This document shows positions 262-11,369 of a DNA stretch of 14,863 nt, one piece after another. The notes under the pieces were generated by a model, which was given only the letters and a program-made list of their open reading frames with translations, did not search any database and had not been told where the DNA came from. Every line of letters starts with the position of its first letter. The stretch's first letter is position 1. The DNA is from a bacterium (GTDB taxonomy: Bacteria; Vulcanimicrobiota; Vulcanimicrobiia; Vulcanimicrobiales; SCRA01): NCBI GenBank assembly GCA_004298675.1, contig SCRI01000052.1, forward strand, positions 1 to 14,863. Direction: 5' to 3'. Made by a program: the position numbers and the translations under genes.

Positions 262-336
262 TCCCCGATAGCTCAATGGTAGAGCATCTGACTGTTAATC
301 AGAGGGTTCCTGGTTCGAGTCCAGGTCGGGGAGCCA
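262..336 (+). tRNA. tRNA-Asn (anticodon GTT), CCA encoded
   Basis: A full cloverleaf can be drawn. The acceptor strands are TCCCCGA (262-268) and TCGGGGA (326-332), followed by discriminator G333 and a genomic CCA (334-336). The anticodon stem TCTGA/TCAGA (287-291/299-303) encloses the seven-base loop CTGTTAA with GTT at 294-296, giving asparagine. The T arm contains GGTTCGAGTCC. The tRNA decodes AAC and AAU. A 5-bp hairpin GTGAC/GTCAC (241-254) lies just upstream and could help 5' processing, but that is inference. No clear promoter was seen upstream. Confidence 0.97.
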
Positions 337-1074: not shown

Positions 1075-1103
1075 ATCTTATAAGAACTGGACCAAGTTGT
1101 CAA
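1075..1103 (-). promoter_or_regulatory. Sigma70-type promoter for tetR
   Basis: On the minus strand TTGACA (1098-1103) is followed after exactly 17 bp by TAAGAT (1075-1080). The -35 is a perfect consensus match and the -10 matches four of six. The predicted start of transcription is near 1068, about ten bases from the tetR ATG. The spacer carries TGGTCCA three bases after the -35. Confidence 0.75.
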
Positions 1104-1137
1104 GAATTCCAAGCCACGTTATTGACTATATGGTCCA
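1088..1137. promoter_or_regulatory. Paired TGGTCCA boxes, probable TetR operators
   Basis: TGGACCA at 1088-1094 and its reverse complement TGGTCCA at 1131-1137 each lie in the spacer of one of the divergent promoters, three bases after its -35. Each is a 7-bp odd-centred dyad (TGG-T-CCA). Their centres are 43 bp apart, close to four helical turns. Two matching sites at the same promoter position is strong circumstantial evidence for a shared repressor. The adjacent TetR gene is the obvious candidate. NemR-type operators use a related GACC/GGTC core (recalled family knowledge). Confidence 0.65.
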
Positions 1138-1150
1138 CTATCCGTATACT
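1122..1150 (+). promoter_or_regulatory. Sigma70-type promoter for the peroxiredoxin-like gene
   Basis: TTGACT (1122-1127), 17 bp of spacer, then TATACT (1145-1150): five of six matches in each hexamer at optimal spacing. Transcription should start near 1157, leaving a leader of about 28 bases that contains the GAGAGG ribosome site. This promoter rules out the in-frame ATG at 1122 as a start codon, because that ATG would overlap the -35 box. Confidence 0.8.
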
Positions 1151-1184: not shown

Positions 1185-1838
1185 ATGGCAACTCTTAAAG
1201 AGCGACTCGAGGCGATGCGCAATGGCAGCAAGCTCAAGCCCGAGATCGAAGCGGCATTCGCTCGCTACTTTTCCGAGGCGCATCCCGAGCCGCTTGCGAA
1301 TGGCTCGCGAATTCCCCATTTCTCCTTACCGGATCACGCAGGCCGGATCGTAAGTTCGATCGACCTTTTGCAGCAGGGCCCACTGGTGATCACGTTCTTC
1401 CGCGGTACATGGTGCCCTTACTGCAACGCGGAGATGGCGGCGCTTAACGACGCCTACGACTCGATCCGCGCGACAGGAGCAGAGCTCGTTGCGATCTCCC
1501 CTCAATCCGCGCAAAGTGCCGGTGACTATCGAAGCGAGCATCCGCTGAAGTTCTCCGTGCTCATCGACACCAATGCAAGGGTCGCCGAGTCCTTCGGCCT
1601 CGCATACATCCTCCCAGATTACCTGCAGGCGTTTTATCGCCACGCCTTCCGTACCGACTTGACTGCCATTAACGACGGAAAGACGTGGCGTTTGCCCGTA
1701 CCGGGTCGTTTCATCGCCGATCGCGACGGCACGATCGTGGATGTCGAGGCAAATGCGGACTATCGCTTCCGTCCGGAGCCGGAGGCAATCGTCCCGATCC
1801 TCAAGCGGCTGGCCCTCGGTCCAGTAAGAAAGGCGTAG
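1185..1838 (+). CDS. Peroxiredoxin-like (AhpC/TSA-type) thiol oxidoreductase
   Basis: A 217-residue cytoplasmic protein with a thioredoxin fold. Residues 66-105 read GPLVITFFRGTWCPYC, then the alpha-2 helix, then ELVAISPQ. The CPYC pair (Cys77, Cys80) lies where classical peroxiredoxins have one peroxidatic Cys in TxxC, so this belongs to the peroxiredoxin-like branch with a vicinal dithiol. The VPGRFIADRDGTIVDVEANADYRFRPEPE segment near 172-200 holds the cis-Pro region typical of redoxins. It probably reduces hydroperoxides or protein disulfides. I chose the ATG at 1185 because GAGAGG (1175-1180) precedes it and the promoter lies just upstream; ATG 1173 is a less likely alternative. It is the first gene of a row ending in a quinone reductase, which fits oxidant or electrophile defence. 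Confidence 0.85.
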   Translation: MATLKERLEAMRNGSKLKPEIEAAFARYFSEAHPEPLANGSRIPHFSLPDHAGRIVSSIDLLQQGPLVITFFRGTWCPYCNAEMAALNDAYDSIRATGAELVAISPQSAQSAGDYRSEHPLKFSVLIDTNARVAESFGLAYILPDYLQAFYRHAFRTDLTAINDGKTWRLPVPGRFIADRDGTIVDVEANADYRFRPEPEAIVPILKRLALGPVRKA

Positions 1839-1900
1839 CGAAGTGATCCCTCCGGCCCTGCGTGGCGTTTACGGTTGTACCTTAGGAGGAGGTTAGAAGC

Positions 1901-2038
1901 ATGAAATACCTTGTCGCACTGGCGCTTGTAGGGGCGCTCGCCGCCCCCGCGCTTGCAAACGATCATTTCGCAAACGTGCCCCACGAAATGAATCTTGGAA
2001 CGTTGGAGGGGCGCGGAGCATTGCGACCACGACGATGA
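1901..2038 (+). CDS. 45-residue exported peptide (possible gene remnant)
   Basis: An AGGAGGAGG ribosome site (1884-1892) lies eight bases before the ATG. The product begins MKYLVALALVGALAAPALA followed by ND, a clean Sec signal peptide with an AxA cleavage site. That leaves only 26 mature residues (NDHFANVPHEMNLGTLEG... ending LRPRR). Its TGA overlaps the next gene's ATG as ATGA (2035-2038), suggesting coupled translation. The near-perfect SD and signal peptide argue that it is expressed. The short, Arg-rich tail could mean the body of a longer periplasmic protein was lost by a deletion that joined it to the half-CcdA gene. No family recognised. Confidence 0.55.
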   Translation: MKYLVALALVGALAAPALANDHFANVPHEMNLGTLEGRGALRPRR

Positions 2039-2313
2039 TCGTCGGTCTCTCGTGCGCGCTCGTGGCGACGCCGTGCGCGAGCGCTGTGCTCGGAGCGGCT
2101 ACGGTCCAAGGGAGCGTGGTTGTTACGATCGCCGCGATGGCACGATATGCCCTCGGTTACACCATCATGCTGTGGCTCGCATCGGCGTTTTCCGGCATCG
2201 TCGTCACTTCGCGGCGAATTCGCGAGCATGGCGAGCTTGTAACGTGCCTTAGTGCCGCCGCGCTATTGCTCTTGGGAGCTGGCTTCGTCTACTACGGCTT
2301 TCAACAGCTGTAG
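2035..2313 (+). CDS. CcdA/DsbD-like membrane protein, C-terminal half only
   Basis: A 92-residue, three-helix membrane protein. It opens with GLSCALVATPCASAVL, matching the fourth transmembrane helix of CcdA-type thiol transporters, whose usual pattern is G-LV-SPC--PVL with an active cysteine (here Cys14). Two more helices follow (about 32-52 and 69-90), joined by a basic loop RRIREHGE, as in the end of CcdA. Full CcdA has two such three-helix halves, about 230 residues; the first half and its cysteine are missing. Upstream codons in this frame are open to about 1897 but hold no ATG and no CcdA-like sequence. It may be a remnant or a working half-size protein passing electrons to periplasmic thiols. 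The ATGA overlap suggests coupling to the exported peptide. Confidence 0.6.
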   Translation: MIVGLSCALVATPCASAVLGAATVQGSVVVTIAAMARYALGYTIMLWLASAFSGIVVTSRRIREHGELVTCLSAAALLLLGAGFVYYGFQQL

Positions 2314-2337
2314 GGCATCAACGAGGAATTCAGGGAA

Positions 2338-3312
2338 ATGCAAGCGATCGTACTGACGGGTTTCAACGGCGTCGAGAGCCTTCGAGTGGCGGAGGTCGAC
2401 GAGCCGCGTCCGGAGGCCGGAGAGGTGCTGATCAAGGTGCGCGCGGCAGGCATCAACTATGCCGAGCTCGAGCAGACCTTGGGGCGCTATCCATTTCAGC
2501 GGCCGCTTCCCGGTATTATGGGCTTCGAGGCTGCCGGGGAAGTCGTCGAGCTCGGCGAGGGGGTGAGCGGTTTGAGCATCGGCGACAGGGTGGTTGCGCC
2601 GGTCTCGAGTGGGGGCTACGCCGAGTACGCCACTGCGAGCGCGGAGCTCGCGTTGCCCATTCCCGAAGGAATAACCTTTGCGCAGGCGACGAGTATTGTG
2701 ATTCAGGGCGTCTCCGCATACGCGCTGCTGTGGCTTACCGCAAGGCCGAAACCGCACGAGACCGTGCTGATTCAAGCCGCGGCCGGTGGCGTGGGGCTCT
2801 ATCTCGTGCAGCTCGCAAAGGTCATGCCGGTTGGGCGGATCATCGCTCTAGCAAGCTCGGCGGAAAAACTCGAGCTGGTAAGGGCACTCGGCGCCGACGC
2901 CGCGATCGATTATTCAGCCGAGGGGTGGCCGGAGCGCGTACTCCAAGAGACCCGCGGGAGGGGCGTTGACGTCGTGCTCGAGATGGCTTCCGGCGATGTT
3001 GGAAAAGCCAGCTTTGGCCTGCTCGCGCCGTTCGGCCGTTTCGTCATGTACGGCGCCAAGAACGTGCAAGACACGTTCACAGCCGCGCAAGTGCGCCAGC
3101 TGATTCACAACAACCAATCGATCGTCGGGTTCAACGTGCCGACCATAGAACGCAAAGACGTAGCGCGATGTGTTCCCCAGCTGCTCGGGCTGATCGCTCA
3201 GGGGAAGATTCGAATCTTCGCCGACACGGCGTTTCCGCTAGCCGAGGTCAAGTCGGCGTTCGATGCGCTCGCCGGGCGCGGCACGATCGGGAAGGTCGTG
3301 CTGGTTCCGTAG
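2338..3312 (+). CDS. Zinc-independent NADPH:quinone oxidoreductase (MDR family)
   Basis: A 324-residue cytosolic enzyme of normal length. The GroES-like N-terminal domain contains GFEAAGEVVELGEGV and IGDRVVAP (62-88). The Rossmann fold follows with AAAGGVG at 147-153 for NADPH, and ALGADAAIDYS afterwards. The structural and catalytic zinc cysteines of alcohol dehydrogenases are absent, placing it with quinone oxidoreductase/zeta-crystallin enzymes that reduce quinones or enones. GAGGA at 2323-2327 gives the ribosome site. It begins 24 bp after the half-CcdA gene and is probably the last gene under the 1122 promoter. With a NemR-like regulator and a peroxiredoxin-like protein it suggests detoxification of quinones or reactive electrophiles. 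Confidence 0.88.
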   Translation: MQAIVLTGFNGVESLRVAEVDEPRPEAGEVLIKVRAAGINYAELEQTLGRYPFQRPLPGIMGFEAAGEVVELGEGVSGLSIGDRVVAPVSSGGYAEYATASAELALPIPEGITFAQATSIVIQGVSAYALLWLTARPKPHETVLIQAAAGGVGLYLVQLAKVMPVGRIIALASSAEKLELVRALGADAAIDYSAEGWPERVLQETRGRGVDVVLEMASGDVGKASFGLLAPFGRFVMYGAKNVQDTFTAAQVRQLIHNNQSIVGFNVPTIERKDVARCVPQLLGLIAQGKIRIFADTAFPLAEVKSAFDALAGRGTIGKVVLVP

Positions 3313-3525: not shown

Positions 3526-5718
3526 TCAGACGCGGACCGTGCGTAGGCGTAGCGCGTTGGTGATCACCGAGACGGAGCTGAACGACATGGCCGCCGCGGC
3601 GATGATCGGCGAGAGGAGGATGCCGAAGGCTGGGTAGAGCACGCCCGCCGCGATCGGCACGCCCAAGGCGTTGTAGACCAGCGCGAAGATCAAATTCTGC
3701 CAGATGTTGCGCATCGTCGCTTCGCTCAGGTGCCGCGCGCGCACGATACCGCGCAGGTCGCCTTTGACCAAGGTGATTCCGGCACTCTCCATGGCGACGT
3801 CCGTCCCCGTGCCCATCGCAATGCCGACTTGGGCCTGGGCCAGCGCCGGCGCGTCGTTGATGCCGTCGCCGGCCATCGCAACGAATCGTCCCTCGCTCTG
3901 GAGGCGCTTGACGATCTCCGCCTTCTGCTGCGGCAGCACCTCGGCGACGACCTCGTCGATGCCCAGGCGAGAGGCAACGGCCTTGGCCGTCGTGGCGCTG
4001 TCGCCCGTGAGCATGACGATGCGGATCCCGGCGTCGTGGAGGGCTCGAATCGCTTGGGGTGTCGTGGCTTTGACGGGATCGGCAACGGCCACCAATCCCG
4101 CCGGCCGTCCGTCGATCGCGACGAACATCGCGGTCTTCCCCTCAAGTCGCAGCGTCTCGGCACGCGCGGCCAGCACCCCGGTCTCGACGTGAAGCGTCCG
4201 CATGAGCGCCGCGTTGCCCAACGCTACCAGATCGCGCCCGATGCGGCCGCGCACACCTTGCCCTGGAATTGAACTGAAATCCTCGACCTGCTCGAGTGCC
4301 AGCTTTCGATTCTCGGCGCCCTGTACGATCGCCGAAGCCAACGGGTGCTCGCTACCCCGCTCGAGCGAGGCGCCGAGTTGCAGCACCTGCTGCTCGCTGA
4401 ATCCGTTCGCGGCCACCACGTCTTGCAGGCGTGGGCGCCCCTCGGTGAGGGTGCCGGTCTTGTCGACCACGAGCGTGTCCACGCGCCGTAACGTTTCGAT
4501 CGCCTCGGCGCTCTTGAAGAGCACGCCGAAGGTGGCGCCTTTGCCCGCCGCTACCATCACGGACATGGGGGTCGCTAGGCCCAAAGCGCACGGGCAGGCG
4601 ATGATGAGCACGGAGACGGCGTTGATGATGGCGTAGGCGAGTGCGGGGCGCGGGCCTACGAGCAGCCAGACGACGAACGTGAGCGCGGCGATCGTGACGA
4701 CGCCGGGAACGAAGTATGCGGAGGCGATGTCGGCGACGCGCTGGATCGGCGCGCGGCTGCGGCTGGCTTCGCTCACCATGTGCACGATCTGCGCCAGCAG
4801 CGTCTCGCTGCCGATGCGGCGCGCTTCCATCACGAAGGTGCCGTTCCCGTTGACCGTCGCGCCGATGACGCGCTCACCGGCAACCTTCTCGACGGGCAAC
4901 GGCTCGCCGGTGATCATCGACTCGTCGACCGAAGAGCTGCCGCCGATCACGAGGCCGTCGACGGGAATCTTCTCCCCCGGCCGCACGCGCAGGCGATCGC
5001 CCACTCGGACATCGTCCAACGGCACGTCCTGCTCGGAGTCGTCCGCGTTGACGCGGCGTGCGGTCTTGGGAGCCAGCCCCAAGAGCGTCCTAATAGCGGC
5101 GTTGGTCCGGCTGCGTGCGCGCAGCTCCAGGACCTGCCCCAGGAGCACGAGCGTCGTGATGACGGCGGCAGCCTCGAAGTAGACGCCGACGACACCCGAC
5201 GCTTCGTGGAACGAGGGCGGAAAGATCTCGGGAGCGGCGACGGCGACGACGCTATAGAGATACGAGACGGCAACGCCCAAACCGATCAACGTGAACATGT
5301 TGAGGTTGCGGGTGATCAGCGAGTTCCAGCCCCGGACGAAGAAGGGCCAGCCGCCCCAGAGCACAACGGGCGTGCTCAGCAGCAACTGCAACCAAGCGGA
5401 GAGCGACGGCGGAACCGGGTTGCGCGCGGCGAGCGCCGGAACGTATCCCGGCATCGTGAGCACGAGCAGCGGCAGCGTGAGCGCGACGCCGGCCCAGAAG
5501 CGTCGCGTCATGTCGACGAGCTCGGTGTTCTCCTCCTCAGCGGCGACGGCGTCGCGCGGCTCGAGCGTCATACCGCACTTCGGGCACGTGCCCGGCCCGG
5601 GGCGGACGATCTCCGGGTGCATCGGGCAGGTGTAGACCACCGGTTGCCTCTCCGCCGTCATCTTGACTAACTCTTTCCTCATGTGCTCGGATACGGCTCG
5701 CTTGGCGGCATCAAACAT
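3526..5718 (-). CDS. copA: Cu(I)-exporting P1B-1 ATPase with N-terminal HMBD
   Basis: A 730-residue inner-membrane pump that hydrolyses ATP to move Cu(I) out of the cytoplasm. Residues 29-54 form a heavy-metal-binding domain (YTCPMHPEI...GTCPKCGM) in place of the more common CxxC HMA domain. The core has TGE (270-272), the membrane motif CPC (375-377), the phosphorylation site DKTGT (419-423), HP (458-459) and GDGINDAP (617-624). All three P1B-1 signatures are present: CPC with Pro383, YN-x4-P (682-688) and M-x2-SS (711-715), so copper or silver is the expected substrate. It is at the downstream end of the minus-strand block, 246 bp from its neighbour, so it may have its own promoter. An alternative start is the ATG at 5659-5661 (711 residues), which has AGGAAAGAG upstream and keeps the HMBD. 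Confidence 0.95.
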
Positions 5719-5757: not shown

Positions 5758-5934
5758 ATGCGACAAGTTGATGCGGTGCTGCGAACGCTCGCGCTCTGGT
5801 CCGCCGTTGTAGCCGCTCTGTCGGCTGTTCCAGGCCGCGCGACGGCGGACCAGAGCGCCAACGCCCGGGAGCCGATGAGGCGGATGCCCTTCGTTCACGT
5901 GGACTTAGGAGTCAACGAGAGAGCCGGAGCGTAG
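5758..5934 (+). CDS. Possible 58-residue exported peptide divergent from copA
   Basis: A short frame beginning MRQVDAVLRTLALWSAVVAALSA, then PGRATADQSANA, looks like a signal peptide with an AxA-type site near residues 27-29. AGAGGCGGAG upstream could be a ribosome site. The mature part would be only about 30 residues, ending LGVNERAGA. It lies on the plus strand inside an otherwise minus-strand block, and the 17-bp inverted repeat at 5791-5858 lies within it, which could by itself create the open frame. The hydrophobic N-terminus may be fortuitous. No family recognised. Confidence 0.25.
   Translation: MRQVDAVLRTLALWSAVVAALSAVPGRATADQSANAREPMRRMPFVHVDLGVNERAGA
5791..5858. repeat. Perfect 17-bp inverted repeat upstream of copA
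   Basis: GCGCTCTGGTCCGCCGT (5791-5807) is the exact reverse complement of 5842-5858. The 34-base loop contains a second hairpin, AGCCG/CGGCT (5811-5815/5822-5826), so RNA from either strand would fold into a long branched stem. It lies 73 bp upstream of the copA start, between copA and the small membrane protein gene. No T tract follows on either strand, so it is not a standard intrinsic terminator. It could be an mRNA processing or attenuation structure in a shared transcript, a protein-binding site or a small mobile repeat. Confidence 0.75.
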
Positions 5935-10229: not shown

Positions 10230-11369
10230 ATGAGCTACAGTCGCCATGGTCTTAGCAGTCCTCCATCTTCCGTCCAGGTGCGCCGGCTGGGCGTTGTGAT
10301 GGAACCGGATCCAAGCAGCGCATTGGAAGTCGAAGGGGTCTGCAATCCCGGCGTTGCGCGTGGCATCGACGGGGAGCTCTACCTCTTCCCGCGCCTGGTG
10401 GCGCGGGACAACTACTCCCGCATCGGAATCGCACGCGTACGCTTCAACGCGGATGGCGATCCGATTGGCGTTGAGCGTCTTGGTATCGCCTTGGAGCCGT
10501 CTGCGCCGTATGAGCGCGCGGGGCCGGGGCAGGGCGGTTGCGAGGATCCGCGCGTGAGTTACTTGGCGCCGCTTGGCCGCTACGTTATGAGCTATACGGC
10601 TCTCGGCTCCGAGAGTCCCCGCATCGCGCTGGCGACTTCCGATGACCTCTTCAGGTGGGAACGGCTTGGTCTCGTATGGTTTGAGGATCCAGCATTAGGC
10701 GTAGATTTCAATGCTGTCAACGACAAAGACGCCGTCTTCTTCCCTCAGGCCACCGTGGATGCGCATGGTCGGCCTGCCCTGGCGCTGGTGCACCGGCCGT
10801 TGTTTCCTCGTTCGATGCCGGGAGACGCGGCAACGGCGCCGGTACCCCGGACGCTGGATCTCGATCGTGAAAGCATGTGGCTGTCCTATTGCTCGCTGAA
10901 AGCGGCTACCTGCAATAGGCACCTGCTCTGCCACTTCACCACCCATTGTCGTTTGGCGTCGCCGGTCTCGCCGTGGGAACGCTTAAAGATCGGTGCCGGT
11001 ACGCCGCCGGTCGCTACCGAGCACGGTTACGTGATGTTATATCACGGCGTTGCCGGCGATGTTGTTGATGATGTTCGGACGATGACCTATGCGGGCGGTT
11101 TGATGGTCCTCGATAAGAAAGACCCACGCGTTATCCGCTATCGATCGCCAGAGCCTGTGCTCGAGCCGCAGCAGCCTGAGGAGCTCAAGGGAACCGTCGA
11201 CCGCGTGGTCTTTCCAACCGGCGCGGACCTACGGACCGATCTCGGACTTCGCCATCGGCTCGACGTCTATTACGGCATGGCGGATCAGAGAATCGGCGCA
11301 GCCTGCATCGATCTCCCGCGGTCTTTCCCTGTAGGGGCACCAGCCGACCGATCAGATCATTGCATTTGA
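10230..11369 (+). CDS. GH130-type glycosidase/phosphorylase (five-bladed propeller)
   Basis: A 379-residue cytosolic protein with GH130 hallmarks. GCEDPRVS (103-110) carries the family's conserved Asp. NAVNDKDAVFFP (161-172), HRP (188-190), WERLKIGAGTPPVATEHGYVMLYHG (249-273), VVFPTGA (326-332) and YYGMADQRIGAA (347-358) follow in order. GH130 enzymes phosphorolyse or hydrolyse beta-mannosides, with phosphate as nucleophile in the phosphorylases. Substrate cannot be set from here. The stretch YCSLKAATCNRHLLCHFTTHC has five cysteines; flanking motifs stay in frame, so I see no frameshift. No SD is evident at the ATG; ATG 10299 (MEPDPSS) is an alternative that keeps the core. It stands alone, convergent with the M56 gene. 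Confidence 0.85.
   Translation: MSYSRHGLSSPPSSVQVRRLGVVMEPDPSSALEVEGVCNPGVARGIDGELYLFPRLVARDNYSRIGIARVRFNADGDPIGVERLGIALEPSAPYERAGPGQGGCEDPRVSYLAPLGRYVMSYTALGSESPRIALATSDDLFRWERLGLVWFEDPALGVDFNAVNDKDAVFFPQATVDAHGRPALALVHRPLFPRSMPGDAATAPVPRTLDLDRESMWLSYCSLKAATCNRHLLCHFTTHCRLASPVSPWERLKIGAGTPPVATEHGYVMLYHGVAGDVVDDVRTMTYAGGLMVLDKKDPRVIRYRSPEPVLEPQQPEELKGTVDRVVFPTGADLRTDLGLRHRLDVYYGMADQRIGAACIDLPRSFPVGAPADRSDHCI

Follow-up and report, generated by a model that had tools for sequence, protein, structure and literature searches.

Paired candidate operators in the divergent promoters of a TetR-family regulator and a peroxiredoxin-like gene

Analysis of a 14,863-nucleotide stretch of DNA (the window) from a bacterium of the order Vulcanimicrobiales suggests that a gene for a TetR-family regulator (tetR) and the divergently transcribed gene for a peroxiredoxin-like protein (prx) share an autoregulated switch. 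In this switch, the TetR repressor would act on twin 16-bp inverted repeats, one in each of the two facing promoters. Sequence comparison leads us to regard this operator and repressor part of the proposal as probable, and we hold it with good confidence. The identity of the inducer is a separate matter and is taken up below.

Divergent promoters and paired inverted repeats

A promoter scan recovered both divergent promoters independently, where 0.3 were expected, and both have the 17-bp spacers that had been proposed for them (Table 1). The window contains just two copies of the heptamer TGGTCCA, one at 1088-1094 (-) and the other at 1131-1137 (+). The original prediction had placed it three bases past the -35 element of both promoters, on opposite strands and 43 bp apart from centre to centre, and each of these details was borne out. 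As a bare heptamer the pair is unremarkable: two copies in the window were reached in 57 of 200 shuffles, and the genome holds 206 copies in 3.03 Mb. What stands out is where the two copies lie.

The heptamer proved to be one arm plus the centre of a longer element. Each site is a 16-bp imperfect inverted repeat, TTGAC-N6-GTCCA (TGGAC-N6-GTCAA on the opposite strand), in which one arm, TTGAC, coincides with bases 1-5 of the -35 hexamer and the other is GTCCA. Both boxes lie three bases past the -35 because the TTGAC arm sits in that hexamer. The boxes proposed as the operator are therefore real, but the site is the 16-bp dyad including the -35, not TGGTCCA alone. The distance from one dyad centre to the other is 34 bp, and the TTGAC arms are turned inwards, one on either side of the spacer's middle. 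The two candidate operators (A in the tetR promoter and B in the prx promoter) match the consensus equally and stand in identical register. The degenerate pattern TKGAC-N6-GTCMA is found twice in the 127-bp spacer, a double occurrence that was seen in none of 20,000 randomised spacers.

Table 1. Features of the tetR-prx locus, with positions in the window
Feature	Position	Strand	Description	Basis
TetR-family regulator, 194 aa	473..1057	-	Cys102 in RGCLL motif	TetR_N and TetR_C_13 domains
tetR promoter	1075..1103	-	-35 TTGACA (1103-1098), 17-bp spacer, -10 TAAGAT (1080-1075)	promoter scan
Operator A (candidate)	1088..1103	-	TTGACAACTTGGTCCA, over the -35 and the upstream half of the tetR promoter spacer	sequence, randomisation, relatives
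Operator B (candidate)	1122..1137	+	TTGACTATATGGTCCA, same register within the prx promoter	sequence, randomisation, relatives
prx promoter	1122..1150	+	-35 TTGACT (1122-1127), 17-bp spacer, -10 TATACT (1145-1150)	promoter scan
Peroxiredoxin-like protein, 217 aa	1185..1838	+	GTWCPYC active-site segment	AhpC-TSA, E 3.7e-24
45-aa ORF	1901..2038	+	signal-peptide-like start; no Pfam match; possible operon member	sequence only
92-aa hydrophobic ORF	2035..2313	+	4-bp overlap with preceding ORF; no family match; possible operon member	
NAD(P)H:quinone oxidoreductase-like protein, 324 aa	2338..3312	+	PIG3-type	ADH_zinc_N, E 1.4e-25

In the mechanism that we propose, a dimer of the TetR-family protein would bind each imperfect repeat and would cover the -35 and the first half of the spacer at each promoter, so that both promoters would be shut to sigma-70 RNA polymerase. 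The dimer would be freed from the DNA by an inducer, which may be an electrophile or oxidant that acts in the pocket beside Cys102. Release would turn on tetR together with the genes for the peroxiredoxin-like protein, the two small ORFs and the quinone-reductase-like protein, four ORFs that presumably form one operon. By analogy, the proposed switch would work as known TetR repressors with divergent targets do, so the type of mechanism is a familiar one; switches that pair a repressor with a detoxification operon are common in bacterial responses to chemical stress.

The regulator, Cys102 and the inducer

Both domains of the regulator scored above their Pfam cut-offs (TetR_N, 42.1 bits against 24; TetR_C_13, 45.4 bits against 27). 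A trait of the TetR_C_13 group is an inverted-repeat operator in the regulator's own divergent promoter region, a part that the dyads at 1088-1103 and 1122-1137 would play here. Among proteins of solved structure, 2i10 and CifR are closest to the regulator.

The cysteine of the GCL segment had been likened to the redox-active Cys106 of NemR. With the NemR sequence in the alignment verified against PDB 4yze, Cys102 falls in the same column as Cys106, and the two proteins share the segment GCL..K..AE; to this extent the comparison stands. However, all 39 relatives examined have Cys102, as do CifR and 2i10, so it is not special to the window protein. Lys175 is the proposed partner of NemR Cys106 in a sulfenamide bond. 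Its position is occupied by Arg171 in the window protein and by arginine in most relatives, so that the exact NemR chemistry is not supported.

Cys102 is also among only seven invariant positions in an alignment of 27 diverse relatives with varied neighbours. It is kept beside genes as different as those for an MFS pump (L047) and a 2-dehydropantoate reductase (L083), and its invariance even where neighbours differ means that its role is perhaps structural. This invariance and the arginine at the Lys175 position both favour an alternative in which the repressor and operators are the same, Cys102 is structural and induction is by an ordinary ligand that binds non-covalently, such as a carbonyl compound or another substrate of an SDR (short-chain dehydrogenase), aldehyde dehydrogenase or quinone reductase. 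CssR, a TetR repressor with cysteines that lack a redox role (PMC8176726), points the same way, whereas the studied regulators of the NemR and CifR kind (NemR, CifR and AltR) answer reactive electrophiles or oxidants. We give a non-covalent ligand a substantial probability, somewhat short of even. Sensing of an electrophile or oxidant through Cys102 is the weakest step of our own proposal and is about evenly balanced; because CifR answers epoxides and AltR uses Cys100 for thiosulfinates, an electrophile is a fair guess and no more.

Several known systems bear on the proposal. CifR of Pseudomonas aeruginosa (E 2.9e-13) is one of the solved proteins nearest in sequence. It too is divergent from its target operon, and it has the same cysteine in an RGCL motif, which appears as Ser in the 6nsm chain. 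Going by the title of Ballok et al. 2012, CifR reportedly has two binding sites, and two predicted operator sites lie in the divergent promoter region here; the likeness concerns the regulator and the number of sites. It differs in its target, since an epoxide hydrolase gene (cif) is absent among 1185-3312, where the targets are peroxiredoxin-like and quinone-reductase-like. Epoxides release CifR from DNA (PMC8244358).

NemR, the bleach- and electrophile-responsive TetR repressor of Escherichia coli, controls electrophile-detoxifying enzymes, which we count as a likeness alongside the equivalent cysteine. Besides the Lys175 substitution, the nemA/gloA context is absent here and the overall similarity is low. 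Operators A and B closely resemble the box of E. coli RutR, TTGACCAnnTGGTCAA. RutR nevertheless controls the rut pyrimidine genes and binds uracil, no rut genes are present in the operon here, and it is not known to have a cysteine-sensor role. The RutR operator is a palindrome of approximately 16 bp (PMC10891134). The TetR repressor AltR of Pantoea ananatis likewise acts at an inverted repeat and has one key cysteine, Cys100 (PMC13178969), but its operator, CAATCTAC-N6-GTAGATTG, is unlike the window dyads and it answers thiosulfinates only. An oxidative-stress TetR of Acidovorax (PMC4204640) belongs to a different gene cluster, and the searched passages of that paper contain no operator sequence.

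Inverted repeats beside related regulators

The closest TetR relative found (L042; 43% identical) comes from another genus of the same order, and its gene faces that of an SDR. The intervening spacer holds two dyads, TGGACCACTCGGTCAA and TGGACCAACCGGTCGT, 33 bp apart. The SDR promoter identified by the scan (TTGACC-17-TATGGT) begins on the first dyad, and a regulator promoter on the second (TGGACC-17-TAAGAT) fits by eye, at a score below the scan threshold. Dyad pairs 31-32 bp apart also were found beside Streptomyces and Arthrobacter relatives that are 34-41% identical (L044, L074, L078, L081 and L080), where the genes facing the regulator encode SDRs or aldehyde dehydrogenases. The consensus of the aligned sites is TGGAC-N6-GTCAA.

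In order to assess this recurrence, the 200 bp upstream of the relatives, with the window and L042 left out, were scored for TGGACC-N4-GGTCCA and for all rearrangements of its half-sites. TGGACC-N4-GGTCCA ranked first of 180 arrangements. Sites matching at least 9 of 12 positions lay upstream of 11 of the 18 near relatives, where the runner-up had 6, and of 19 of the 37 relatives overall, only about half, where the runner-up had 10. After near-duplicates were dropped, a pair 31-34 bp apart was present in 3 of 18 near relatives, a number reached by none of the 179 rearranged half-sites; when all 35 relatives are counted, one of the rearrangements attains 3 as well. The pairing test is based on three independent loci plus L127. 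The latter is one of six further loci that were fetched once the motif was fixed. It has two full matches 31 bp apart and adjoins an SDR gene, and its regulator shares 45% identity with that of L042. Another of the six, L130, has a single site (9/10), and no site was found in the four more distant ones. The dyad pair also was absent from more distant relatives, and from beside the 30%-identical tetR paralogues in the same genome (C39 and C16).

Regulators with the recognition helix GLG[KR]GSLY have better sites than the others (mean 8.9/10 versus 7.2/10; p = 2e-4), in a test made on related proteins and sequences that are not independent and partly circular because several of the scored sites helped define the motif. 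In more distant relatives (L047, L048, L050, L052 and L053) the dyads vary in sequence but keep the 16-bp geometry (TGGAGCGATTGCTCCA, TGGCCCGAACGGTCCA, CGGACTAATCGGTCCG and CGGACCAACTGGTCCA), and some directly precede the tetR start codon. The operator thus seems to drift along with its regulator.

The original prediction had placed a repressor-type site in both promoters and had named spacers of relatives without the boxes as evidence against it. The dyads are kept beside related tetR genes, which argues for such a site, and among the near relatives the contrary evidence did not appear. Several relatives (L045, L076 and L079) have just one good dyad, near tetR, and this arrangement would suit a model in which the window regulator acts through operator A to repress tetR alone, operator B is fortuitous or weak and the prx operon is otherwise controlled. 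We consider this model unlikely, given the equal match and common register of A and B and the recurrence of the paired arrangement at 31-34 bp in relatives. That AT-rich promoter DNA, -35 hexamers and a coincidental 7-mer produced the pair by chance is very improbable, for although the bare 7-mer is common and two per window are ordinary, randomised spacers did not yield two full dyads and the dyad is conserved in relatives.

A wider reading has a fair probability, somewhat below even, and we put it forward tentatively. A distinct and widely scattered TetR subgroup with the GLG[KR]GSLY helix, the invariant Cys102 and twin TGGAC-N6-GTCAA operators 31-34 bp apart might constitute a portable electrophile switch, joined in unrelated phyla to different oxidoreductases (an SDR, an aldehyde dehydrogenase or, here, a peroxiredoxin and a quinone reductase). 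Pairs of TGGAC-N6-GTCAA 31-34 bp apart offer a searchable operator for a group of uncharacterised TetR repressors from Streptomyces, Arthrobacter and an uncultured lineage, and tie this group to oxidoreductase targets. Together, the operator and the targets make the question of the inducer directly testable. The predicted operator/repressor pair also could serve as a biosensor part.

Target genes and genomic surroundings

Domain matches agree with the peroxiredoxin-like and quinone-reductase-like targets that had been predicted. Relatives of the prx product carry the annotation 'peroxiredoxin-like family protein', and the quinone-reductase-like protein matched the PIG3 family at E 4.3e-68 with 230 bits, below the 297-bit cut-off. 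The two small ORFs lie between these genes at close spacing. Elsewhere, prx relatives often adjoin LysR regulators, not this TetR, and the prx-TetR pairing was not seen at any other locus among those examined. On plasmids of other bacteria, prx relatives lie beside genes for glutathione transferases, alkene reductases and SDRs, neighbourhoods that fit the detoxification theme. Plasmids of Methylobacterium and Rouxiella (L122, L123 and L124) have a conserved cassette of LysR, glutathione transferase, peroxiredoxin-like protein and SDR.

Within the phylum, a TetR relative at E < 1e-25 was found in only 2 of 149 genomes (the window genome and that of L042), so that the occurrence of tetR is patchy; prx was found in 7 of the 149. 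Viral contigs and two genome samples, each of about 350, yielded no close tetR relatives. A tRNA-Asn (GTT) gene at 262-336 (+) lies a short way downstream of the tetR stop codon, and this gene and the patchy occurrence of tetR and prx may be the mark of an acquired gene block.

The pattern TKGAC-N6-GTCMA is not enriched in the genome, where it occurs in 17 places versus 16 for the reversed pattern. Since there is no genome-wide excess, the switch looks local, which fits the 'self-contained' switch first envisaged. A regulon beyond the locus was rejected on these counts and because three places that were checked lie inside long ORFs. Contig C26 has a further TGGTCCA pair, spaced 57 bp, which also was rejected as a pair of operators because both copies fall within the start of a reading frame that looks peptidase-like and adjoins a LysR gene. 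A third TTGAC-N6-GTCCA dyad in the window, TTGACTCCTAAGTCCA at 5900-5915 (-), is located about 180 bp upstream of a copper-type P-ATPase gene. It lies inside a plausible small secreted-protein frame with no promoter match, and we take it to be a chance occurrence. Models of beta-1,2-mannobiose phosphorylase matched 10230-11369 (+) with scores well below their cut-offs. The copper-type P-ATPase (3526-5718, -) scored above the TIGR01511 cut-off, and its N-terminal CPMHPEI segment is a possible metal-binding site.
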